A model generated the notes under the pieces. It was given only the letters and a program-made list of their open reading frames with translations, was not told where the DNA came from and searched no databases. Positions 21,479-32,292 of a DNA stretch of 64,000 nucleotides are shown here, piece after piece. The stretch's first letter is position 1. The number at the start of each line of letters is the position of its first letter. Both the position numbers and the translations under genes were made by a program. Source of the DNA: Terriglobia bacterium (GTDB lineage Bacteria > Acidobacteriota > Terriglobia > Terriglobales > Acidobacteriaceae); assembly GCA_020073525.1 (NCBI GenBank), contig JAIQFA010000002.1:1-64000 (forward strand). The letters run 5' to 3'.

Positions 21479-22042
21479 TTAGTTCGTCCTGTGCAGGTCG
21501 AAGTGCGCGTGGATCGGCTTGTCGTTCATCATGAACGTCCAATCCTCGGTGTGATGGTTGGCGTCGATGATGGTGAACACCGAATGGTGCATGTGCTGGT
21601 CCGTGCTCCCACTGATGTCCTTGAGCTCGAACTCGACCATCTTGCCGTCGGGCGACATCTTGCCGGTCATACGCGGCCGGTTCCCGGCATCGCAATAGTG
21701 AACCAACGTGAGCTGGTCTCCGTCCACGTAAAGCATGGTGACCGGATGGTCGTACTTTGTCGCATCCAACGGCGTTCCTGCTTCCTGCAACTCGTGCACG
21801 AGGGCGTGTCCCCGCGAGGTTACACGCAGTGAGACGTGGAGCGGCTTGCCGTCCGACATCTGCGGCATCTCGGGGACGGTGACGGGGCCTTCCCACTCTC
21901 CCGCCAGGCTTTTCATGGTTGCGAAGGACTTCTGCGCCTCGGACGGCACAGGAGCCACGGACTTTTGCGCGTCGGACTGGGCGAAAGCCACGGTGGAGAG
22001 CGATAGCAGGACACCTAACAGCACAAAACGAAGGGATTTCAT
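21479..22042 (-). CDS. Secreted lipocalin/DUF1579-like protein (187 aa)
   Basis: Signal peptide at 1-21 (LRFVLLGVLLSLSTVAFA-Q). The mature protein contains LAGEWEGPV, repeated G.....V and D-G-D/P-D-G-K strand-turn patterns (YVDGDQLTLVHYCDAGNRPRM, SPDGKMVEFEL), and HTEDWTFMMND, which suggests a small beta-barrel such as DUF1579 or a fatty-acid-binding-like fold. Exact family is uncertain. It is 47 nt upstream of gntR on the same strand and probably shares its promoter. The upstream AT-rich palindrome suggests control by the GntR protein. Confidence 0.75.
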   Translation of the reverse strand: MKSLRFVLLGVLLSLSTVAFAQSDAQKSVAPVPSEAQKSFATMKSLAGEWEGPVTVPEMPQMSDGKPLHVSLRVTSRGHALVHELQEAGTPLDATKYDHPVTMLYVDGDQLTLVHYCDAGNRPRMTGKMSPDGKMVEFELKDISGSTDQHMHHSVFTIIDANHHTEDWTFMMNDKPIHAHFDLHRTN

Positions 22043-22152
22043 GTTTTATTCTCCTTTGAGAAGTTCATTCTTCCTTGCTCTTGGGTCAGGGTTTATTCCT
22101 GTCGTACTGAGATCGATCAGCGCTCACGACCCTACTTGTCATATACTGTCAT

Positions 22153-22182
22153 AGATAACTATAACACTAGTTAACATGTCAA
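22153..22182 (-). promoter_or_regulatory. Candidate promoter with operator palindrome for the DUF1579-like/gntR/ABC operon
   Basis: An 18-bp perfect inverted repeat TAACTA-N6-TAGTTA (22156-22173) sits in an AT-rich patch. On the minus strand TTGACA (22182-22177) is followed at 18 bp by TTATCT (22158-22153), a poor -10, so the palindrome would fill the spacer, the classic repressor position. It lies about 110 nt before the secreted-protein ATG at 22042. Confidence 0.45.
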
Positions 22183-22539
22183 GCTGTTTCTGCAATTCGA
22201 AGCGGTCGGGGCAGCCCGTAGGATTCGGATCAAAGATGCGGACGCGTCCAAGGGGAAAGAAAGAAGGTGCAGGCTCGGGCTACCCGCGCTCGGGAAAAGC
22301 AGGCAGTTTCCTGAGATCGAGACTTGCTATTATTTGAAGCGGGATGGTCCGCGCGGTGCCGCCGTCCCTTGTGTTGAGAGCGAAACGGAATCAGATGGTT
22401 GGGCGACGAGAATCTGGGTTGTCAGCCGCTCCCAAGTTGAGCAACCGACACCAGAACTGACACCAGCTATAAGGGAGAATTGAAAATTCTTCCGGCAATG
22501 GGATGTAAGTGCTTTACAGTGTCGTCTTTACAGAAAAGA
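22183..22539. other. Non-coding gap upstream of tRNA-Arg
   Basis: No convincing gene is seen. It includes a possible -35 TTGAAA at 22480-22485 without a good -10, and a 7-bp direct repeat TTTACAG at 22513-22519 and 22527-22533 just before the tRNA. The segment 22451-22468 has two near-copies of GACACCAGA/TGACACCAG. Confidence 0.5.
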
Positions 22540-22616
22540 GGGCCCGTAGCTCAAGCGGATAGAGCATCGGATTTCTAATCCGAGGGTTGCAGGTTCGATT
22601 CCTGCCGGGCCCACCA
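22540..22616 (+). tRNA. tRNA-Arg (anticodon UCU)
   Basis: Complete cloverleaf: acceptor GGGCCCG/CGGGCCC, D-arm with AGCTCAAGCGGATAGAGC, anticodon stem TCGGA/TCCGA with loop TTTCTAA (anticodon TCT, reads AGA), and a T-arm with GGTTCGATTCC. Discriminator A, and the 3' CCA (22614-22616) is encoded. No mobile element is seen at its 3' end. Confidence 0.97.
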
Positions 22617-22764
22617 GTTCTCGACGAAGTTGCGTGTAGTACATGCATCTCCTGAGTCCGTCATGAGCGAAGTTTACGATCCAGACGGCGAGTTGGAAAA
22701 TTGCGAGCGCCCATGTCCTGCGGCGATTCACCCTGCTCTTTCGTGAGTTCGCCAGGGACTGCCG

Positions 22765-22780
22765 CGTGACAAGGGTCACC
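22765..22780. promoter_or_regulatory. CRP/FNR-type palindrome upstream of the PPDK-N protein gene
   Basis: CGTGA-CAAGGG-TCACC contains the core GTGA-N6-TCAC, 34 nt before the ATG at 22815. It is one of four such sites in the window (also 26888, 33766, 35505), three of which share GG before TCAC. Confidence 0.5.
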
Positions 22781-22814
22781 GCCGCAGGGGCCAGCACGGG
22801 CTAGGATATCCCCC

Positions 22815-25800
22815 ATGAGCATGCGCCGCACGGCCGAGCCCGCCGTCCTTCTGGATGCCGAAGAACGCTTTGAGGGCTTCGATCGTCTGATGCCCTTCAA
22901 AGTGCTCAACATTCTCCTGGTCTCGAGTCTCTACGATTCTTTCATTCTCCGCGAAGACGGCCGCCTCAACGAACTCCTGATTGACGAATCACTCGAACTG
23001 AACCTGCGGCAGATTCCGAGGATCACGCACGTCTCCAGCTGCGGCGAAGCTCTTCACCTGGCAAGTTCCAATCCGCAATTCAACCTGATCGTCACCAACC
23101 TTGCGGTCGGCGACATGGATGCGGCGCAGTTGGCACACGAAGTCCGCCGCGCCGGGTTGGATGTGCCTGTCGTGGTTCTGGCCTACGACTACCGCGAGAT
23201 CAAGAATTTTGTTGCCCGCAATCCGGTCACCGACATCGATCGCGTCTTCCTGTGGCAGGGCAGTGCCCGCATCCTGATTGCGATGGTCAAGTACATCGAA
23301 GACAAACGAAACGTGCAGCACGACACACGGGCGCTCGGAGTGCCGGTGCTGCTGGTGGTGGAAGACAACATCCGCTACTACTCGTCGTTCCTGCCCGTGA
23401 TCTACACCGAGCTGATCAAGCAATCGCGGCGCGTGATCCAGGAAGGCATCAACGTGGCGCATAAGCTGGCGCGCATGCAGGCGCGGCCGAGAATTCTGCT
23501 GAGTTCAAACTTCGAAGACGCGGCCAGCCTGGTGCAGGAGTATCGCGATTGTCTGTTTGGCCTGGTATCGGACGTCGAATTTCCGCGGGATGGCAAGCTG
23601 AGTCCGGAGGCAGGTTTTGATCTCGCGCGTATGGTGAAGAGCCTGGTCCCGGACGTGCCGGTAGTGCTGCAAACCAGTCGCACCGAGTTCCGCCCGCGAG
23701 CGCACGCTGCGGGCTATTCGTTTCTGCGCAAGCGTTCGCCTACGCTGCTGAACGACTTGCGCCAGATCTTGACCGAGGAATTCGGCTTTGGCGACTTCGT
23801 GTTTCGCTTGCCGGATGCGAGTGAAGTCGGCCGGGCGAAGGACCTGAACGAACTGGAAGAGCAACTGCAAACGGTTCCGGCCGAAAGCCTGATGTATCAC
23901 GCGCAGAGCAACCACTTCTCGCACTGGCTGATGGCCCGGACCGAGTTTGCGCTGGCGGCGAAGCTGAGGCCGCGGCGCGTCTCCGACTTCTCGGGTCCAG
24001 AACATTTGCGCCGCGATCTGATTGAGTCGATCCACGAGTATCGACGCGAACAGAGCGAGATACTGATCGGCGACTTCCGGGCCGATACCTTCAAGCCCTC
24101 GGAATCAAGTTTTCTGCGGATCGGATCGGGTTCGCTGGGCGGGAAAGCTCGCGGCCTCGCCTTCGTGCGCCACCTTCTGCGCAAAAGCCGCATGAGCCGC
24201 CGTTTTCCCGGAGTGCGCATTTCAGTTCCTCCCGCAGTCGTTCTGGCGACGGACGTGTTCGATCAGTTCGTAGTCGAGAACAACCTTTTGGACTTCGCTT
24301 TGCATTGCGAAGATGATGCTGAAATTCAGCGGGAGTTCCTGGCTATACCCCTGTCCGCTTCCCTCACCGAAGACCTGAAGTCGTTTCTGGCCGAAGTGCA
24401 CCACCCGTTGGCGGTGCGCTCGTCGAGCTTGCTGGAGGATTCGCAATACCAGCCTTTCACCGGTGTGTATGAAACGTTCATGCTGGGCAACCAACAAGCG
24501 AATCCAGCAGACCGCCTGGCGGCGCTGAGCGAGGCAATCCGGCGCGTCTACGCGTCCACTTTCAGCCAACACGCGAAGGCTTACGTGCGGGCCACTCCCT
24601 ACCGCCTGGAAGAGGAAAAAATGGCGGTGATTCTCCAGCGGGTTGTGGGTACGCCCCACAGGCAGCGTTTTTATCCGGATTTTTCGGGTGTGGTGCGCTC
24701 GCGCAATTATTATCCTGTGCCGCCCATGACCTTCGAGGATGGCATCGCGGCCGTCGCTCTGGGCCTGGGGCGGGCGGTGGTTGATGGAGGGAAGTGTTTG
24801 ACCTTCTGCCCGCGTTACCCGCAAAACCTGGTGCAGTTCTCCTCGGTCGAAGACATACTCTCGAATTCGCAGTCGGAATTCTGGGGCTTGGAGTTGGATG
24901 GCACAGCGGAAGGCCGTCCGGGTCATTGGCACGAGAAGCGGTTCGGCCTGGATGCTGCTGAGAGCGACGGTACTCTGTGGGCGCTGGCCTCGACTTACTC
25001 CCGAGATAATCATGCGGTCTACGATGGCGTGAGCCGGCCGGGCGCACGCATCGTGACCTTTGCCCCCATGCTCAAGCACGGCACTTTTCCGCTGGCTGAG
25101 ATTCTCGATGACCTGGTTCGAGCCGGGGAAGAGGCGCTGGGCAATCCCGTGGAAATCGAATTCGCCGTGCGTTTGCCCCAGCAGGCAGGCACATTGACCG
25201 GAGAGGCGGCAGAGTTTGGTTTCCTGCAGATCCGTCCACTGACGCTGGCGCGCGACACGGAGGATTTAACTCTCGACGACGTGCGACCGGAGCGGTTGAT
25301 CTGCCTGAGCAGTAAGGTTCTAGGCAACGGCCGGGTCGAGGGCCTTCACGATGTGGTGGTAGTCGATTCGCAGCGCTTCGAGCGCGGTCGAAGCCAGGAA
25401 GTGGCAACGGCGGTCGCCCGCTTCAATCGCCTGCTCAATGAGAATCACCGGCCCTATCTGCTGATCGGGGTTGGACGCTGGGGATCGACCGAACCCTGGC
25501 TCGGCATTCCGGTCGAGTGGGATGAGATCTCGGGCGCGCGCGTGATTGTGGAGGCTGGATTCCGCGATTTTCGCGTGACCCCGTCACAGGGTAGCCACTT
25601 TTTCCAGAATCTCACTGCCTTTCAGATCGGGTACTTCACCGTGAATCCAGACGCCGGCGAAGGATCCGTCGACTGGCAGTGGTTGACGGAACAACCCGCC
25701 GTGGAAGAAGAAGGCTGCGTGCGTCACCTGCAGTTTGCGGATCCAATCCGCGTGATTATGAACAGCCGGACCAGCCAAGGTGTCATCTTCAAGCCGGAAG

Positions 25801-25820
25801 CTGAAGTTTCGCGACCGTAG
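22815..25820 (+). CDS. Receiver-like/PEP-pyruvate-binding (PPDK N-domain) fusion protein, 1001 aa
   Basis: Unusual multidomain protein. Residues about 30-160 and 170-335 look like two receiver-type (CheY-like) domains: LNILLVSSLYDSF, FNLIVTNLAVGDMDAAQLAHEVR, VPVVVLAYD, then PVLLVVEDN and VPVVLQTS. From about 440 comes an ATP-grasp PEP/pyruvate-binding domain as in pyruvate phosphate dikinase and PEP synthase: GSGSLGGKARGLAFV, then LAVRSSSLLEDSQYQPFTGVYETF. The phosphohistidine swivel domain with its His motif and the C-terminal PEP TIM-barrel are absent. The last 130 residues carry YLLIGVGRWGSTEPWLGIPV and SQGSHFFQNL. It could phosphorylate a separate carrier or be a regulatory kinase. Standalone gene, with the stop inside a palindromic repeat. 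Confidence 0.85.
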   Translation: MSMRRTAEPAVLLDAEERFEGFDRLMPFKVLNILLVSSLYDSFILREDGRLNELLIDESLELNLRQIPRITHVSSCGEALHLASSNPQFNLIVTNLAVGDMDAAQLAHEVRRAGLDVPVVVLAYDYREIKNFVARNPVTDIDRVFLWQGSARILIAMVKYIEDKRNVQHDTRALGVPVLLVVEDNIRYYSSFLPVIYTELIKQSRRVIQEGINVAHKLARMQARPRILLSSNFEDAASLVQEYRDCLFGLVSDVEFPRDGKLSPEAGFDLARMVKSLVPDVPVVLQTSRTEFRPRAHAAGYSFLRKRSPTLLNDLRQILTEEFGFGDFVFRLPDASEVGRAKDLNELEEQLQTVPAESLMYHAQSNHFSHWLMARTEFALAAKLRPRRVSDFSGPEHLRRDLIESIHEYRREQSEILIGDFRADTFKPSESSFLRIGSGSLGGKARGLAFVRHLLRKSRMSRRFPGVRISVPPAVVLATDVFDQFVVENNLLDFALHCEDDAEIQREFLAIPLSASLTEDLKSFLAEVHHPLAVRSSSLLEDSQYQPFTGVYETFMLGNQQANPADRLAALSEAIRRVYASTFSQHAKAYVRATPYRLEEEKMAVILQRVVGTPHRQRFYPDFSGVVRSRNYYPVPPMTFEDGIAAVALGLGRAVVDGGKCLTFCPRYPQNLVQFSSVEDILSNSQSEFWGLELDGTAEGRPGHWHEKRFGLDAAESDGTLWALASTYSRDNHAVYDGVSRPGARIVTFAPMLKHGTFPLAEILDDLVRAGEEALGNPVEIEFAVRLPQQAGTLTGEAAEFGFLQIRPLTLARDTEDLTLDDVRPERLICLSSKVLGNGRVEGLHDVVVVDSQRFERGRSQEVATAVARFNRLLNENHRPYLLIGVGRWGSTEPWLGIPVEWDEISGARVIVEAGFRDFRVTPSQGSHFFQNLTAFQIGYFTVNPDAGEGSVDWQWLTEQPAVEEEGCVRHLQFADPIRVIMNSRTSQGVIFKPEAEVSRP

Positions 25821-25905
25821 CGCCACCGTGCTCGGCGGCTGTCCGGCGGACCGCGCCGAGGGGCGAGACGCCCTCGGAACAGCCGGCAAGATGCCAGCGC
25901 TACGG
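25815..25905 (+). repeat. Multi-hairpin palindromic element with CCGTAGCGC closing stem
   Basis: The closing stem CCGTAGCGC (25815-25823) pairs with GCGCTACGG (25897-25905). Inside are CGGCTGT/ACAGCCG (25836-25842, 25879-25885) and CCGAGGG/CCCTCGG (25856-25862, 25871-25877). The PPDK-N gene's TAG stop (25818-25820) lies inside the first arm. The right half CCGGCAAGATG...GCGCTACG recurs at 45412-45434. Confidence 0.85.
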
Positions 25906-26138
25906 CCAGATTTCTCCTTGACTCGGCAGGGGAACCGGGGGAGAATTTGTCCTGAGTAGTGCGCCTTTTTCCGCGAGCAATTCTCGTTCGCGAAACAAGA
26001 GCCCGAGAAGCGCTTCCCCAGAGGCGTAGGGCCAAAGTTATCCGATTACAACCCAGGCATGCGAACGGCTGGATTCGGCTGGCAATGTTCCCATTGACGC
26101 GGGGCGTCGTGGGATTCACTACAGACGGGGAGGCGCGT

Positions 26139-26858
26139 ATGGCAACGGAAAAAGGCAACATTCAACAGAAGATTTGTTTAGGTCTTTCAGCGGCGACGGG
26201 CGGACTACTGGCAGTTTTGGCTGACATCATGCAAAAGCAGGATGCCTCGGCTGTAGAACAATTGAAGTCCGCGTTGGGAACGGTCTTGCAGGTCCGGACC
26301 TATCCGTGGTTTGTGGGGCTGCTGCTGATCGTGCTTTCTGTGGCGCTCAGTTTCATTTTCAGTGCAGATTCCAACAAGAAGTCCTTTTATGTGGGCGCCA
26401 GCATTCTGGCGATCATGATGACGTCGGTGCCGTACGACGCGAAACCGGGCCTCAATACGGGCTCAGTCCTGCACCCAACCCCTGACGCGGTCGGAGCGAC
26501 AAACGAACTGGGTTGGTGGGGCCGATTCCTGATTCCTTCCCGGGTTTTCGCACAGAACGCGGCACCTTCGAGCCAGGGCTCGCCGGTCACAGTCCAGCTC
26601 GAGACCACGGACAAGAAGCCGGTCAGCATGGCCACATTTACGCTTGTTGATCCCAGCAATGGCCAAGTGGTGGCTCGATCGCGCGTTCAGGGCAGCAAGT
26701 TTACGTTCTATGTGACCAACCCGCAGTATCTGCTTCGGGTCCAGGTGGACGGCTACGCGATCGCGGAACATTCTCTCAATCCACCACCGCCGTCGCTCAC
26801 CATCTCGCTGACTCCGTCTAGTGTTCCGCTGTCGATTCAGCGGCTCTTCCGGAAGTAG
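26139..26858 (+). CDS. Hypothetical membrane protein with periplasmic beta domain (239 aa)
   Basis: Unrecognised. The start at ATG 26139 is preceded by GGGGAGG (26127-26133), a strong SD. The in-frame sequence back to 25959 is rejected. There are two or three hydrophobic segments: weak at about 12-28, clear at about 57-74 (WFVGLLLIVLSVALSFIF) and about 82-98. Then comes a linker and a C-terminal beta-sandwich-like part of about 85 residues (VTVQLETTDKKPVSMATFTLVDPSNGQVVARS...) resembling carboxypeptidase-regulatory-type modules. No operon partner. The gap 25821-26138 before it holds the multi-hairpin repeat and no other recognisable feature. Confidence 0.65.
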   Translation: MATEKGNIQQKICLGLSAATGGLLAVLADIMQKQDASAVEQLKSALGTVLQVRTYPWFVGLLLIVLSVALSFIFSADSNKKSFYVGASILAIMMTSVPYDAKPGLNTGSVLHPTPDAVGATNELGWWGRFLIPSRVFAQNAAPSSQGSPVTVQLETTDKKPVSMATFTLVDPSNGQVVARSRVQGSKFTFYVTNPQYLLRVQVDGYAIAEHSLNPPPPSLTISLTPSSVPLSIQRLFRK

Positions 26859-26887: not shown

Positions 26888-26903
26888 TGTGATTCGGGTC
26901 ACA
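26888..26903. promoter_or_regulatory. CRP/FNR-type palindrome upstream of the CPVCG protein gene
   Basis: TGTGA-TTCGGG-TCACA, a perfect match to the CRP consensus half sites with a 6-bp spacer, 65 nt before the ATG at 26969. Confidence 0.55.
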
Positions 26904-27346: not shown

Positions 27347-28567
27347 TCAGTGTTTCTGAATCACTTTTGCGATTCGCTCGAAGGCCCAATCAATTTCATG
27401 GCGGGTGATGACGAGCGGCGGCGCGATGCGAATCACCCGGTCGTGCGTTTCCTTGCAGAGAATTCCTTCTTCCTTGAGCGCTTCGCAGTAGGGACGCGCT
27501 GGGCTGTGGAGTTCGATGGCGATCCACAGGCCTTGACCGCGCACCTCTTTCAGGTCGGAGCTGCGCAGGGTTTGCAGCAAGGTCAGGAAATAGGCGCCTA
27601 GTTCGGCGGAACGTTCCACCATTTTTTCTTCAACCAGGACGCGCAGCGCGGTTCGGGCGATGGCGCAGCCCATGGGATTGCCGCCGAAGGTGCTACCGTG
27701 GTCGCCGGGCTTGTACACTCCGAGAATTTCTCTTGACGCCAGGATCGCCGAGACCGGATAGAATCCACCGGCTAGCGCCTTGCCTACGATCAACACATCG
27801 GGCGTGATTCCTTCGTGCATATAAGCGAAGAGCTTGCCGGTTCGTCCCAGGCCGGACTGAATCTCGTCCGTCATCAGCAACACGCGATTCTTATGGCAGA
27901 TTTCAGCCGCTTCCTTCAGGAAACCGGCTGGCGGAATGACAATTCCGGCCTCGCCCTGAATGGGCTCGACCAGAAAGGCGCAGGTGTTGGGAGTGATGGC
28001 TTCGCGGAGGGCGCGCGCGTCGCCGAAGGGTATGACTTTGAACCCCGGAGTGAACGGGCCGAAGCCGTCGCGATATTGTTCGTCGGTCGAGAAGCCGACG
28101 ATGGTGACGGTGCGGCCATGAAAATTATTGGCGCAGACGATGATCTCGGCTTTGTCCTGCGGAATGCCCTTGACCTTGTAGCCCCACTTGCGCGCCGTCT
28201 TGATCGCGGTTTCGACGGCCTCGGCACCTGAGTTCATGGGGAGCGCCATGTCGAAGCCGGTCAGGTCGTGGAGTTCCTTGTAGAGCAGCGGCAGTTGCTC
28301 GTTGCGGAAGGCGCGCGAGGTGAGCGTGACTTTCCGCGCTTGCTCGTTGAGCGTTTGCAGAATCTTGGGATGACAGTGTCCCTGATTCACCGCGGAATAC
28401 GCGGCCAGGCAATCGAGGTAACGTTTGCCCTCGACGTCATATACCCACACGCCTTCGGCGCGCTCGATTACGACGTCGAGCGGATGATAGTTGTGAGCTC
28501 CATACTGGTTTTCGAGTTCTACGAAGTAATCGGTGCGCATAGTTTTTTCTATTAGTTCGGTGGTCAT
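27347..28567 (-). CDS. rocD: Ornithine aminotransferase
   Basis: PLP enzyme converting ornithine and 2-oxoglutarate to glutamate-5-semialdehyde and glutamate. The 406 aa carry [41 protein letters not shown], typical of the ornithine/acetylornithine group, plus [36 protein letters not shown], and [17 protein letters not shown] with the PLP lysine. YGAHNYHP at the N-terminus favours RocD over ArgD. ATG 28567 has AAAGGA upstream. It is last in a minus-strand operon with pyrB-like, arcC and argF genes, consistent with ornithine disposal. Confidence 0.93.
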
Positions 28568-28601
28568 AAGGTCCTTTCACTGAATCGCCAGCCGCCGCAA
28601 T

Positions 28602-29144
28602 TCATTTTGTTACTTCGATTCTGATTTTGTTGGAGGCAATTGTGCCCCGCTCCCGCGACCACAGCGGCAGATTGGGGAGTCGAAGGTTTTTCCGAAGGTA
28701 TTGTTCTGGTAGGGAACTGGTGTACTCCACGAAAATATCGTACGTCCCCGGCGTATTGACGAAGTGTGTTGCATCTTCACTCACGCGGTTTCCAAAGAAC
28801 TCGCCGCCTTCAAGCACTATGAAGTCATCTTCCCGTGGCATTGGCGGGACCTCGTCGGCCAAGAATGTAGTGAACACTTCTTTGCCATTGCTATCAAACA
28901 CTCGTACATCCATTCGCCCCACACCCCATCCCACATGGCGCCACACAAGCAGGGATTCGCCGCCGAGGTTTTCAACCTGGATTTGAAGTTGGAACTTCTC
29001 CTTGATGCCGTACGACAATTTCGCACTTCGGACCGACACTGACAGTGTTGGCTTGACGGGTTGTTCTTGCCCCTCAGCCAGCTTCAGCGCCGGACTGACA
29101 GCGGCACCCAATACGAGAGCGCACGATATGATGGTCTTTAGCAT
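28602..29144 (-). CDS. Secreted hypothetical protein in the carbamoyltransferase operon (180 aa)
   Basis: Signal peptide at about 1-25 (KTIISCALVLGAAVSPALKLAEG). The mature protein is beta-rich: LSVSVRSAKLSYGIKEKFQLQIQVENLGGESLLVWRHVG looks like an immunoglobulin-like strand pattern, followed by FVNTPGTYDIFVEYTS and a C-terminal basic tail. Family not recognised. It lies between the pyrB-like gene (40 nt) and rocD (34 nt) in the same direction. A secreted protein inside a cytoplasmic catabolic operon is odd and may be an insertion or a substrate-binding helper. Confidence 0.7.
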   Translation of the reverse strand: MLKTIISCALVLGAAVSPALKLAEGQEQPVKPTLSVSVRSAKLSYGIKEKFQLQIQVENLGGESLLVWRHVGWGVGRMDVRVFDSNGKEVFTTFLADEVPPMPREDDFIVLEGGEFFGNRVSEDATHFVNTPGTYDIFVEYTSSLPEQYLRKNLRLPNLPLWSRERGTIASNKIRIEVTK

Positions 29145-29184
29145 TGCTTGACTTTATGCCAAGTTCTAGCGTTTCGTCCTGCCC

Positions 29185-30201
29185 CTACCACCAAGCACTC
29201 CCCGCCGCCGGTTCCTTGTCCAACAGCATGGTCAGCAGCGCCATCCGCACGTAGAGGCCGTTCATGGCCTGGCGGAAATACATGGCTCTGGGATCGGCAT
29301 CGACTGATTTATCCAACTCGACCGTGCGAGGCAGCGGATGAAGGATCAGTGCATCCGGCTTCATGCGCTGCACTACTTTCGAATCGATGGCGTAACGCCG
29401 TAACCCATCCAGGTCCTTGAATCGCTCAGGATGGATCCGCGTCTGGTAAACCACATCCACTTCGCCAATCACGCGGTCAATGTCGGACTCCAGTTCGTAG
29501 CGGACGCCATGCTCATCGAGATATTCCAGGATGTCCGGCTTCATCTGCAGTTGCGGCGGGCTGACGAAGAACATCTTTACCCGATCGAACTTGGCCAGCA
29601 GATACGCCAGCGACCGCGCCGTACGTCCTTTATCTAACTCGCCGATGATGGCCACGCTGAGGCCATTCAACGGACGCTGCCTGTAGATAGTGTACAGGTC
29701 GAGCAAAGCCTGGGTCGGATGCTGGCCGCCGTTGCCATCGCCGGCATTGATCACGGGCACCAGCGAGACTTCCGCGGCGCGACGGGCGCCGTCTTCGGCG
29801 GTGTGGCGAATGACAATCACATCCGAATAGCCGCTGATGATGCGGATGGAATCCTCGACCTGCTCACCTTCGATCTCCGACGAAAACACGCCCGCGTTCT
29901 CCGTGGACAAGACCCGGCCGCCCAGTCGATGCATGGCGGCCTCGAATGAGAGTCGAGTGCGGGTCGACGGCGCATAAAAAAGCGTGGTGAGGATGCGGTT
30001 CTGGTAATCGAGAGTGCCGCCGCGCGCCACTACGTGCTCCATGCCTCGCGACCGCGAGAATAATTCCATGAGCAGAGGCACCGTGAATTGCTGCGACTCC
30101 AGCACATGTTTCAACGGCATGCCGCCGATCAGCACGGATTCCGCGTCAGGAGGCTGAATCGTGTTGAGCGGCTGGAGGGGAGTGATCGTCGATTTTGGCA
30201 T
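29185..30201 (-). CDS. Aspartate-carbamoyltransferase-like transcarbamylase with altered amino-acid site
   Basis: 338 aa from the ATG at 30201, which overlaps the arcC stop (TAATG). The carbamoyl-phosphate site is intact: S-T-R-T-R in FYAPSTRTRLSFEAA, H-P-T-Q in the middle, and HPLPR near the C-terminus, followed by D.DPRAMYFRQAMNGLYVRMALL, strongly PyrB-like. However, the 80s-loop lysine that should contact aspartate is replaced (EIEGE where K-G-E is expected), and the TR-x-Q motif reads T-R-I-H-P-E-R-F, losing the Gln. So it may carbamoylate, or decarbamoylate, something other than aspartate, as proposed for YgeW-type enzymes. The operon context (arcC, argF) supports a catabolic role. No pyrC or pyrI is nearby. 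Confidence 0.85.
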   Translation of the reverse strand: MPKSTITPLQPLNTIQPPDAESVLIGGMPLKHVLESQQFTVPLLMELFSRSRGMEHVVARGGTLDYQNRILTTLFYAPSTRTRLSFEAAMHRLGGRVLSTENAGVFSSEIEGEQVEDSIRIISGYSDVIVIRHTAEDGARRAAEVSLVPVINAGDGNGGQHPTQALLDLYTIYRQRPLNGLSVAIIGELDKGRTARSLAYLLAKFDRVKMFFVSPPQLQMKPDILEYLDEHGVRYELESDIDRVIGEVDVVYQTRIHPERFKDLDGLRRYAIDSKVVQRMKPDALILHPLPRTVELDKSVDADPRAMYFRQAMNGLYVRMALLTMLLDKEPAAGSAWW

Positions 30202-31226
30202 TAGCGTCCTCGCACCGGAAGTTCGAGTGTTTTGTTTTCCAAATCTTTGTTCTTGAGATCGGTGTTGCGCCCGCTTTTCGCGCGGTCGCGATCGGTAAAC
30301 ATGTGTGTGCCGGCCGATCCGGCAACCGCCTGGCACAGATTCTCGCAGGAAGTAATGATGGCTTCCTTGCCTCCGCTGTGCAGAAAGCGCAATACGGATT
30401 CGATTTTGGGGCCCATGTTTCCGGGTGGGAAATGGCCAGCTCTTACATACTCGTCCAACTCATCCGCGCTGACATTACGCAGTGGGCGTTGCGTCGGTTT
30501 CTTGTAGTCGAGGTACACGTAGTCAGTATCGGTGGAAATGACAAAGAGGTCGACGTTGAGGCACGAAGCCAGCAACGCGGAGATGCGATCCTTGTCGATG
30601 ACCGCCTCGACTCCCTGCAATTTCCCGTTCCTCCAGACGACAGGAACTCCACCGCCTCCGCAGGCGATGACCAGCACGCCGTGCCCAATCAGATTTCGGA
30701 TGACCTCCAGTTCAACGATGCCGACCGGCTCAGGCGACGGAACGACACGGCGATAACCGCGAGCCGCATCCTCCACAATCTCCCATCCGAAAAGGCGCTT
30801 GCGTTCCTCGGCGTCGGCACGCGAATAGAAAGGACCAATCGGTTTGCTGGGGTGCTTCATCGAGGGATCGTCTGGCAATACCAGGCATTGGGTCACAATC
30901 GTCGCCACCGGCACATGCAGATCGGCCTGTTGCAGTTCGCTTTGCAGCGACTGCTGGAGAAGATATCCGATCTCGCCCTGGGTGGAGGCGCCACAAACGT
31001 CGAGCGGGAGTCCGGGCACCTGGCTTGCTCCCCGTTCCGAGCGTAGAAGGGCAGCTCCAACTTGCGGGCCGTTGCCGTGCGTCAGCACTATGTGGTAACC
31101 GGCACGGATCAGGCCGATGATCTGGGCGGCGGTGCGCTGGGCGTTGGCCAGTTGCTCGGCGATGGTTCCCTTTTCTCCCGCGCGAATCAGGGAGTTTCCG
31201 CCGACGGCAAGGAGCATGGTCTTCAT
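30201..31226 (-). CDS. arcC: Carbamate kinase
   Basis: Converts carbamoyl phosphate and ADP to ATP, CO2 and NH3. 341 aa from the ATG at 31226; an in-frame TTG at 31238 is possible. Amino-acid-kinase fold: L-A-V-G-G-N-S-L-I near the start, THGNGPQVG, PL-D-V-C-G-A-S-TQGEIGY, VPSPEP..I.E, VLVIACGGGG(V)PV, AVIDKD..SALLA and TDVDYVY-like (T-D-T-D-Y-V-Y-L-D). The C-terminus has FPPGNMGPKIE and GTHMFTD, followed by a 25-residue polar tail not usual for ArcC. It is third in the operon, and its stop overlaps the pyrB-like start. Confidence 0.95.
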   Translation of the reverse strand: MKTMLLAVGGNSLIRAGEKGTIAEQLANAQRTAAQIIGLIRAGYHIVLTHGNGPQVGAALLRSERGASQVPGLPLDVCGASTQGEIGYLLQQSLQSELQQADLHVPVATIVTQCLVLPDDPSMKHPSKPIGPFYSRADAEERKRLFGWEIVEDAARGYRRVVPSPEPVGIVELEVIRNLIGHGVLVIACGGGGVPVVWRNGKLQGVEAVIDKDRISALLASCLNVDLFVISTDTDYVYLDYKKPTQRPLRNVSADELDEYVRAGHFPPGNMGPKIESVLRFLHSGGKEAIITSCENLCQAVAGSAGTHMFTDRDRAKSGRNTDLKNKDLENKTLELPVRGR

Positions 31227-31238
31227 AAGCGTTTTCAA

Positions 31239-31293
31239 GTGGAGAGCCGGGCGTCCCCGCCCGGCTGGACGGGCGAGGCGCCCGTCTCTCCAC
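31239..31293 (+). repeat. Three-stem palindromic element between argF and arcC
   Basis: The closing stem GTGGAG/CTCCAC (31239-31244, 31288-31293) encloses AGCCGGGCG-TCCC-CGCCCGGCT (31245-31266) and GACGGGCG-AGG-CGCCCGTC (31268-31286). It has the same three-stem plan as the element at 27248 but a different sequence. Positioned inside the operon, it could tune expression of arcC and downstream genes. Confidence 0.88.
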
Positions 31294-31302
31294 AGGCTCT
31301 AA

Positions 31303-32292
31303 CTATATGTGCGCCAACTCCTGCAACTCGACCAGGCCTGGCAATTTGACGAACTCGCCTTTCATCAATTCCAGCATGATCGCTTTTTGCGCGTGCAGGC
31401 GGTTCTCGGCCTGCTGAAATACCAGCGACCGGGGCGAGTCGATCACATCGTTGGTGACCTCGTCGCCGCGGTGTGCGGGCAGGCAATGCAGGAAGATGGC
31501 ATCGTGCTTGGCGCGACGGAACAGCGTCGCATCAACCTGGTACGGGAGAAAGATGTGCTTGCGTTTCTCCGTTTCCGATTCTTGTCCCATGCTGGCCCAG
31601 ACATCGGTGTAGATCACATCGGCGCCCGCGGCCGCCTCGTCGGGATCATTCGTTGTCGTGCAAGTGCCGCCCGTCTCGGCGCCGCGTTCGCGGGCCCAGG
31701 CTACCGACTCCGCATCGAGTTCGTATCCCGGAGGCGTAGCCAGCCAGACATGCGCGCCGACCTGGGCTCCGGCAAACATGAGGGAGCGGGCGACGTTATT
31801 GCCATCGCCTATATATACGATCTTCAAGCCGTCCAGATTGCCTTTCGTTTCCCAGATGGTGAGGTAATCGGCCATCGCCTGGCAGGGATGACTGTAGTCG
31901 GAGAGCCCATTGATGACCGGGATACTGGCGTATTGCGCCATCTGTTTCACCACTTCATGGGAGAAGGTGCGGATCATGACGCCCTGCACCATGCGTTCCA
32001 GGTTCTTCGCCACATCGTATACGGACTCGCGTTTGCCCAGATTGATCTCGGCCGGAGAGAGGTAGAGCGAGAAGCCGCCCAGTTGCTGGATACCGACATC
32101 AAAAGTTACCCGGGTGCGTAGGGAAGGTTTCTCGAAGATCATGGCCAGAGTCTGACGACGCAGTGTTCCGCCGTAAACGGCCGGGTGAGCTTTGACTTGA
32201 CGGCCTAGCGTGAGCAGATACTGGATGTCAGACGGCGAGAAATCTCGAACGGAGAGAAAATCTTTGGCGTCGATATTGCCGTGGCCATTCAT
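31303..32292 (-). CDS. argF: Ornithine carbamoyltransferase
   Basis: Interconverts ornithine + carbamoyl phosphate and citrulline + phosphate. 329 aa with F-E-K-P-S-L-R-T-R-V-T-F-D (carbamoyl phosphate), H-P-C-Q-A-M-A-D, D-V-W-A-S-M-G (the ornithine-binding SMG loop) and F-L-H-C-L-P-A-H-R-G. All are canonical, unlike the neighbouring PyrB-like protein. The start overlaps the stop of the GTPase gene (ATGA). Next to arcC and rocD a catabolic direction is likely, but no arginine deiminase gene is in the window, so the source of citrulline or of another carbamoyl donor is unknown. Confidence 0.96.
   Translation of the reverse strand: MNGHGNIDAKDFLSVRDFSPSDIQYLLTLGRQVKAHPAVYGGTLRRQTLAMIFEKPSLRTRVTFDVGIQQLGGFSLYLSPAEINLGKRESVYDVAKNLERMVQGVMIRTFSHEVVKQMAQYASIPVINGLSDYSHPCQAMADYLTIWETKGNLDGLKIVYIGDGNNVARSLMFAGAQVGAHVWLATPPGYELDAESVAWARERGAETGGTCTTTNDPDEAAAGADVIYTDVWASMGQESETEKRKHIFLPYQVDATLFRRAKHDAIFLHCLPAHRGDEVTNDVIDSPRSLVFQQAENRLHAQKAIMLELMKGEFVKLPGLVELQELAHI

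Follow-up and report, generated by a model that had tools for sequence, protein, structure and literature searches.

The gene at positions 22815-25820 (+ strand) of a 64,000-nucleotide stretch of contig JAIQFA010000002.1, from a Terriglobia bacterium of the family Acidobacteriaceae (assembly GCA_020073525.1; the whole stretch is referred to below as the window), encodes a protein of 1001 amino acids (P0001) in which two receiver (REC) domains, a PPDK_N-type ATP-grasp domain and a C-terminal domain predicted to be swivel-like follow one another. Relatives of this gene often adjoin a gene for glutamate dehydrogenase (GDH), an enzyme that links carbon and nitrogen metabolism; this linkage is very probably a genuine property of the family and is much surer than the phosphotransfer chemistry proposed for the protein. 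The most economical reading, to which we give an even chance of being right, is that the protein is a receiver-gated ATP-to-histidine phosphotransferase (dikinase) that would control GDH.

Dikinases, receivers and, by name, the combination of REC with PPDK are already known. A literature search, judged mostly by titles and the openings of abstracts, found no publication on GDH linkage or on a swivel-like C-terminus in this family, the function of which is possibly important. If true, the proposed mechanism would be a way of regulating ammonium assimilation that was not found described, one that Bacteroidota, Acidobacteriota and numerous uncultured phyla share, and it would bring protein targets, beside metabolites, within the reach of phosphohistidine chemistry of the phosphoenolpyruvate (PEP) synthase type. 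K444, H928, D253 and H362 offer residue-level handles on the hypothesis.

The predicted dikinase core and its family

The open reading frame (ORF) from which a sequence-only reading of the window had started was confirmed in extent and strand. It is under purifying selection, with ratios of non-synonymous to synonymous substitution rates (dN/dS) of 0.087, 0.101, 0.113 and 0.065 in pairwise comparisons with four homologues, dS exceeding 1.5 and so lying near saturation in two of the four. The same reading had called the gene an orphan with no partner gene, which holds for the window, where tblastn detected no GDH gene within the 64 kb, but not for the family, whose near-full-length homologues are many and often GDH-linked. 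When GTDB genomes were scanned with an alignment of eight sequences as query, at least 577 stretches encoding relatives were returned, of which the best 80 were retained. An open frame was present in 75 of these loci (five with frame breaks were dropped), and two more were dropped for length; the 73 remaining homologues (>930 amino acids), 38-89% identical to the window protein, together with that protein form the 74-sequence alignment A2, to which the conservation counts below refer. The best 80 loci, nearly all from metagenome-assembled genomes and with taxa taken from record titles, include bacteria (Acidobacteria, Ignavibacteria/Chlorobi/Bacteroidetes, KSB1, Planctomycetota, Calditrichaceae, Gemmatimonadales, Zixibacteria, Eisenbacteria, Elusimicrobia, Delongbacteria, Desulfobacterales, Myxococcota and Bdellovibrionales) and archaea (Euryarchaeota, Thermoplasmatota and the Asgard group). 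Within the window's genus, a gene of this type is found in 20 of 24 genomes, the bacterium's own genome counted, with several of the 20 being contig fragments and two matches carrying an in-frame stop. The family, spread across numerous bacterial phyla and some archaeal ones, is not an orphan.

The PPDK_N assignment made from the sequence was borne out, with a Pfam match at residues 440-817 (E 1.2e-35; 123.8 bits against a cut-off of 27). The ATP-grasp residues on which the earlier reading depended are present: K444, R535, E780, E782 and Q805 are each invariant (74/74), and R807 is found in 72 of the 74 sequences. In the AlphaFold2 model of the full-length protein, built from 74 sequences (mean predicted local distance difference test score, pLDDT, 88.2; predicted template modelling score 0.82), structural comparison with VIA matched the ATP-grasp domain to rifampin phosphotransferase (5hv1; Z 26.9, 2.6 Å, 282 residues) and PEP synthase (2ols; Z 26.1, 2.8 Å, 292 residues), and PPDK was also matched (1dik; Z 18.8, 4.4 Å, 351 residues). 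By motif order, K444 and R535 are probably equivalent to Lys22 and Arg117 of rifampin phosphotransferase; in that enzyme Lys22, Arg117 and Thr136 are described as important to its first phosphotransfer, and Glu297 as dispensable (PMC4844700). The earlier statement that the protein lacks a PEP/pyruvate TIM barrel also stands, there being no Pfam match to one and the chain stopping about 185 residues past the ATP-grasp domain.

For the C-terminal domain the outcome was different. It had been described as unassigned, and the phosphohistidine part of the enzyme as missing, with the histidine expected on another protein. When modelled alone (residues 812-996, 70 sequences, pLDDT 89.9), the domain is predicted to take the form of a swivelling domain whose best VIA matches are phosphohistidine domains, and the invariant His928 provides a fold-level candidate within the chain itself, although no Pfam swivel family is matched. 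Among the top 1000 chains from Foldseek, VIA ranked first residues 756-867 of 5hv1 (Z 7.4, 3.1 Å, 112 residues), with PPDK 5jvj residues 373-510 (Z 7.3, 3.9 Å, 123 residues), 5fbu (Z 7.3, 3.4 Å, 113 residues) and 2fm4, a structure of the PPDK carrier domain in isolation (Z 6.1, 4.2 Å, 118 residues), also matched. Phosphohistidine domains of rifampin phosphotransferase or PPDK fill 12 of the 14 leading rows (Z 5.7-7.4), pyruvate kinases fill the remaining two, and other proteins begin at row 15 (Z 5.6). Within the model of the whole protein, the ATP-grasp domain and the C-terminal domain align jointly on rifampin phosphotransferase 5hv3 (380 residues, model 421-994, root-mean-square deviation 5.0) and on PPDK 1dik (351 residues, model 421-994, 4.4), these ranges giving first and last residues only. 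The predicted elements of the C-terminal domain run hairpin, helix, strand, loop, strand, histidine at a helix start, helix, strand, which we take to be the order of a swivel domain. His928, conserved in 73 of 73 sequences and placed at the helix start in both the full-length and the separate model, is by this order of strands and helices a candidate for the swivel histidine.

Several results weigh against this assignment and the chemistry built upon it. A Z of 7.4 falls within the range (7-8) that VIA itself rates as ambiguous; Foldseek alone found nothing at E <= 1e-3 for the C-terminal domain; and in the full-length comparison the top row, 5hv1, and also 5fbs stop at chain residue 734, before the histidine domain, so that the two-domain match to dikinases is carried by part of the VIA rows. 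At the sequence level, a Pfam scan found PF00391 in none of 70 family members, the weak matches of the domain being spread over 11 families, seemingly unrelated by name, with one or two members each. Profile-profile comparison by hhalign of the C-terminal profile A3 (from which four further members, whose contigs end inside the domain, were excluded) with a PEP-utiliser profile built from the PF00391 loci of relatives gave a probability of about 0.1% and no similarity in any mode, and a profile search of the PDB with the domain returned nothing significant (best E 0.11). A motif script for ordinary swivel motifs found them in 15 of 26 loci; in the C-terminal domain the classical motif (GGxT[SC]H; T/SxxGGxxxH) is reduced to G[ST]H, the form T/SxxGGxxxH being that given in the available part of the work on phenolic dikinases (PMC12167813). 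Because sequence methods detect nothing, the swivel assignment is made at the level of the fold, and with a reduced motif and no sequence similarity the domain is therefore called swivel-like and is not assigned to PF00391.

The best Foldseek match, an LD-carboxypeptidase (E 6e-3), was considered as another identity for the C-terminus. It remains the less favoured alternative because VIA ranks it below the phosphohistidine domains (Z 5.5 against 7.4) and because it shares the same general swivelling fold in the SCOP classification.

The window protein resembles PEP synthase and PPDK in its PPDK_N ATP-grasp domain, where the catalytic residues are of the same kind, and in the predicted swivel-like domain that comes directly after it, and its model aligns over both domains; it differs in lacking the TIM barrel, in a swivel that is unrecognisable by sequence, in its N-terminal receivers and in its linkage to GDH. 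Rifampin phosphotransferase, the best structural match overall (VIA Z 26-27), shares the logic of an ATP-grasp domain acting with a histidine swivel but, in the part of its description that was available, carries a rifampin-binding domain between the two, has His825 in a canonical swivel and has no receivers (PMC4844700). The two-component phenolic dikinases HpeHI, CreHI and PpsAB are alike in that an ATP-grasp protein (HpeI, itself a VIA match of the full-length model at Z 19.7) phosphorylates a swivel histidine while other parts vary; as far as the available part of that work goes, they are unlike in placing the swivel and substrate domain on a second polypeptide, in using phenols as substrates and in having no receivers (PMC12167813), whereas the window protein is a single polypeptide with no third, phenol-binding domain. 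A census of two-component systems in archaea noted the same REC-PPDK combination for three Heimdallarchaeota; the available part of it gives neither a C-terminal fold nor a function for the combination, and its main text does not contain the term glutamate dehydrogenase.

Conservation in the C-terminal domain is especially high in the loop at residues 885-902 (GxGRWGS..DPWLGIP..W), in which a glycine-rich GxGxxG pattern follows a strand; on inspection, the loop was not seen in ordinary swivel segments. A very unlikely alternative is that this loop and the glycine-rich strand bind a metabolite, such as glutamate or 2-oxoglutarate, and that the protein is a small-molecule kinase or ligase of glutamate metabolism. 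The conservation and peculiarity of the loop would suit such a role, as would the fact that PEP synthase, PPDK and rifampin phosphotransferase all phosphorylate small molecules; those three dikinases, however, use a separate substrate domain that is absent here, and the receivers, together with the GAF-like input module of a paralogue described below, suggest signalling.

Linkage to glutamate dehydrogenase

Clustering of 521 neighbouring ORFs from the 75 loci gave a single dominant cluster, GDH, which is present within 6 kb in 42 loci; the next cluster, a PPDK_N paralogue, occurs in 14, and those after it in 10 and 8. By hand count, GDH lies 400 nucleotides or less from the gene in 38 of the 75 loci, and many of the remaining loci are cut by contig ends. 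Ten neighbouring dehydrogenases from nine loci were compared with NCBIfam models: eight pass that of NADP-specific GDH, while the remaining two (a second GDH on the opposite side) fall below the cut-offs of the glutamate dehydrogenase models that they match.

A separate sample of Acidobacteriota, in which 63 of 149 genomes searched had a match of any type, gave the same picture. A PF00208 match lies within 2 kb of 34 of 46 full-length genes (45 genomes, 28 genera), and in 32 of these 34 close pairs GDH is upstream on the same strand; the 46 exclude the window's own gene, shorter family pieces (such as the 735-amino-acid frame at G052:C166:6666-8831 and that in G104) and all paralogues, and the counts are not fully independent because nine of the 45 genomes come from one genus. 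Of the 12 genes without a close GDH, two come from genomes (completeness 75 and 81) that lack any GDH match, two lie 4.2-4.3 kb from GDH, one lies 0.98 Mb away, and for seven GDH is on other contigs only. As a control, PF00391 matches in the same genomes, which represent PEP synthase, PPDK and similar ordinary proteins, were within 2 kb of GDH in 0 of 88 cases and within 10 kb in one, and chance neighbourhood was rejected on the contrast between 0/88 and 34/46. The partner predicted from both samples is GDH and not the separate swivel-domain protein that had been anticipated.

The paralogues of the gene give the main reason for proposing GDH as the target. On another contig of the same genome (C151; L038:7433-12387), two further PPDK_N proteins have the same ATP-grasp and C-terminal core and are flanked by a Glu/Leu/Phe/Val dehydrogenase gene and a metallophosphoesterase. 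One, of 592 amino acids, has no receivers; the other begins with a weakly GAF-like region and has a nucleotidyltransferase domain downstream, and is a single chain in genome G015 and two pieces in the window's own genome. K444, R535, E782, Q805, R807 and H928 are invariant across all three types in the eight-sequence alignment. In the Acidobacteriota sample, the 592-amino-acid type lies within 2 kb of GDH in three of five cases and the GAF-like type in 12 of 22, counting only genomes with a full-length gene, assigning the second type by match range and score, and leaving out a sixth 592-amino-acid row (G104) whose genome was outside the GDH search. It is because the input module varies while the core and often the GDH partner persist that GDH is put forward as the target. 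Histidine phosphorylation of the NADP-dependent GDH of Escherichia coli was reportedly described by Lin and Reeves in the 1990s.

On the other side of the balance, linkage of genes points to a shared process and is not proof that GDH is phosphorylated. GDH is near the gene in one of 19 regions from the window's genus (the window included, several regions being cut by contig ends), the exception being G009, with GDH roughly 3.7 kb upstream and on the same strand, and the GDH-family genes of the window's own genome are on other contigs (C27, C145 and C151). A homologue from another record (L046) that is 82% identical has GDH 158 nucleotides upstream, and the detached state looks derived.

Receivers and proposed mechanism

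Both receiver folds expected from the sequence are present in the predicted structure, where residues of about 30-163 and 176-329 each match receiver domains in VIA with Z of about 14, the second up to 16.7; Pfam's Response_reg family matches the first alone (residues 47-123), at 20.6 bits and below its cut-off of 30.2. The conserved phosphoacceptor aspartate that was looked for exists in one of them. In REC2 the phosphorylation site is complete, with E183, D253, S/T287 and K306 each in 74 of 74 sequences and D184 in 70, whereas the corresponding position of REC1 is Asn95 in the window protein and Met in 35, Thr in 23 and Asn in seven of the 74 sequences. REC2 is the intact receiver and REC1 the degenerate one. 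Tandem receivers are also found in PleD-type regulators (Foldseek matches 2wb4 and 1w25), of which one receiver is degenerate, but there the order is opposite, the second receiver being the intact one here, and the output here is a dikinase core in place of GGDEF.

Between REC2 and the ATP-grasp domain lies a helical linker with a marginal match to DUF5752 (residues 339-415; 25.1 bits, cut-off 23), a family on which the literature search found no publication. About the same region (A2 profile positions 331-405) has a weak profile match to OrfY (PDB 4cso, E 0.0057). The linker contains His362 (codon 23898-23900), beside REC2 and invariant in 74 of 74 sequences; H362 and H928 (73/73) are the only histidines conserved at 90% or more in the family.

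This pair of histidines is what an internal reverse phosphorelay would use, in which phosphate would pass from the ATP-grasp domain to His928, perhaps to His362, and finally to REC2 at Asp253, with the ATP-grasp core standing in for a histidine kinase and the phospho-receiver being the output that acts on GDH. The full phosphoacceptor site of REC2 also speaks for such a relay, as do the neighbourhoods, where among the 25 largest clusters no histidine kinase cluster occurs in more than four of the 75 loci, a result that counts against the reading preferred below. We nevertheless think the relay distinctly improbable: the 592-amino-acid paralogue has the same core and no receivers, and because it too lies near GDH in three of five cases a receiver in cis is not essential to the core; moreover, we know of no transfer from a phosphohistidine of a PEP-synthase-type swivel to an aspartate.

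In the reading preferred here, that of a receiver-gated dikinase, the ATP-grasp domain would bind ATP and phosphorylate His928 on the swivel-like domain, yielding AMP, Pi and His~P, by a chemistry modelled on PEP synthase, PPDK and rifampin phosphotransferase, in which ATP gives first a pyrophospho-histidine and then a phospho-histidine. REC2 may gate the ATP-to-histidine step once a histidine kinase or a small phosphodonor has phosphorylated it at Asp253, with REC1 as a putative degenerate partner or dimerisation receiver. The phospho-swivel would then have a separate protein as its target, for which the NADP-type GDH encoded alongside is the likeliest candidate, and would in this way switch ammonium assimilation, in whichever direction that regulation may run. 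Action on, or contact with, a separate protein such as GDH is proposed because the chain holds no substrate-binding third domain and because of the linkage, and control of GDH is considered probable because the gene so often adjoins that of GDH. The phosphotransfer regulator with receiver input that the sequence had suggested is retained in its outline and changed in two respects, in that a candidate swivel lies within the chain and that the predicted partner is GDH.

The linkage, the absence of a third, substrate-binding domain and the degenerate swivel motif would suit a non-catalytic regulator that binds ATP or AMP, integrates the receiver signal and contacts GDH allosterically, with no phosphotransfer. 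This is unlikely, since 74 divergent sequences preserve the active-site Lys, Arg, Glu and Gln without exception and the last Arg almost without exception, seemingly beyond the needs of ATP sensing alone, and H928 is invariant as well. A broader proposal, offered tentatively and with more doubt than conviction, is that these proteins form a new class of signal-controlled protein kinase spread over many bacterial and archaeal phyla, in which an ATP-grasp/cryptic phosphohistidine-swivel core without a metabolite domain would be joined to interchangeable inputs (receivers, GAF-like or none) and would pass phosphate to another protein (GDH) or to its own receiver.

Features of the locus

The features of the gene are collected in Table 1.

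Table 1. Coordinates in the window of the gene and of the domains and residues assigned to its product
Feature	Position	Strand	Basis
REC-REC-ATP-grasp-swivel-like protein, 1001 amino acids	22815..25820	+	ORF; homologues share architecture; dN/dS 0.065-0.113
REC1, residues 28-168, degenerate receiver fold	22896..23318	+	Predicted structure; VIA Z about 14; conservation
REC2, residues 176-329, intact receiver (E183/D184, D253, S/T287, K306)	23340..23801	+	VIA Z up to 16.7; 74-sequence conservation
Asp253 codon, predicted REC2 phosphoacceptor	23571..23573	+	Invariant, 74/74
Helical linker, residues 330-425, partly DUF5752, with invariant His362	23802..24089	+	Pfam; helices in model; H362 74/74
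PPDK_N ATP-grasp, residues 432-815, catalytic K444, R535, E780/E782, Q805, R807	24108..25259	+	Pfam; VIA; conservation
C-terminal swivel-like domain (predicted), residues 826-993	25290..25793	+	Separate model pLDDT 89.9; VIA Z 7.4; no Pfam family
His928 codon, candidate phosphohistidine, helix N-terminus	25596..25598	+	73/73; secondary structure

Directly upstream of the gene is a tRNA-Arg (anticodon TCT) at 22540-22616 (+), which is possibly the site at which the gene became separated from GDH. A scan of 22000-26100 for sigma-70 promoters detected a single site, which is not upstream of the gene. The CRP-like site that had been noted 34 nucleotides upstream does exist, at 22765-22780 with two mismatches, but sites with up to two mismatches number 16 in the whole window against 20.3 expected, and regulation of the gene by CRP was rejected as their number is at or below chance. 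A perfect CRP-type palindrome, TGTGATTCGGGTCACA, is found at 26888-26903, just 3' of a 299-amino-acid ORF at 25959-26858. Further downstream, 27347-32292 (-) is an arginine/ornithine-type nitrogen metabolism cluster that encodes an ornithine aminotransferase, an aspartate-carbamoyltransferase-like protein, a carbamate kinase and an ornithine carbamoyltransferase, with a 180-amino-acid ORF between them.

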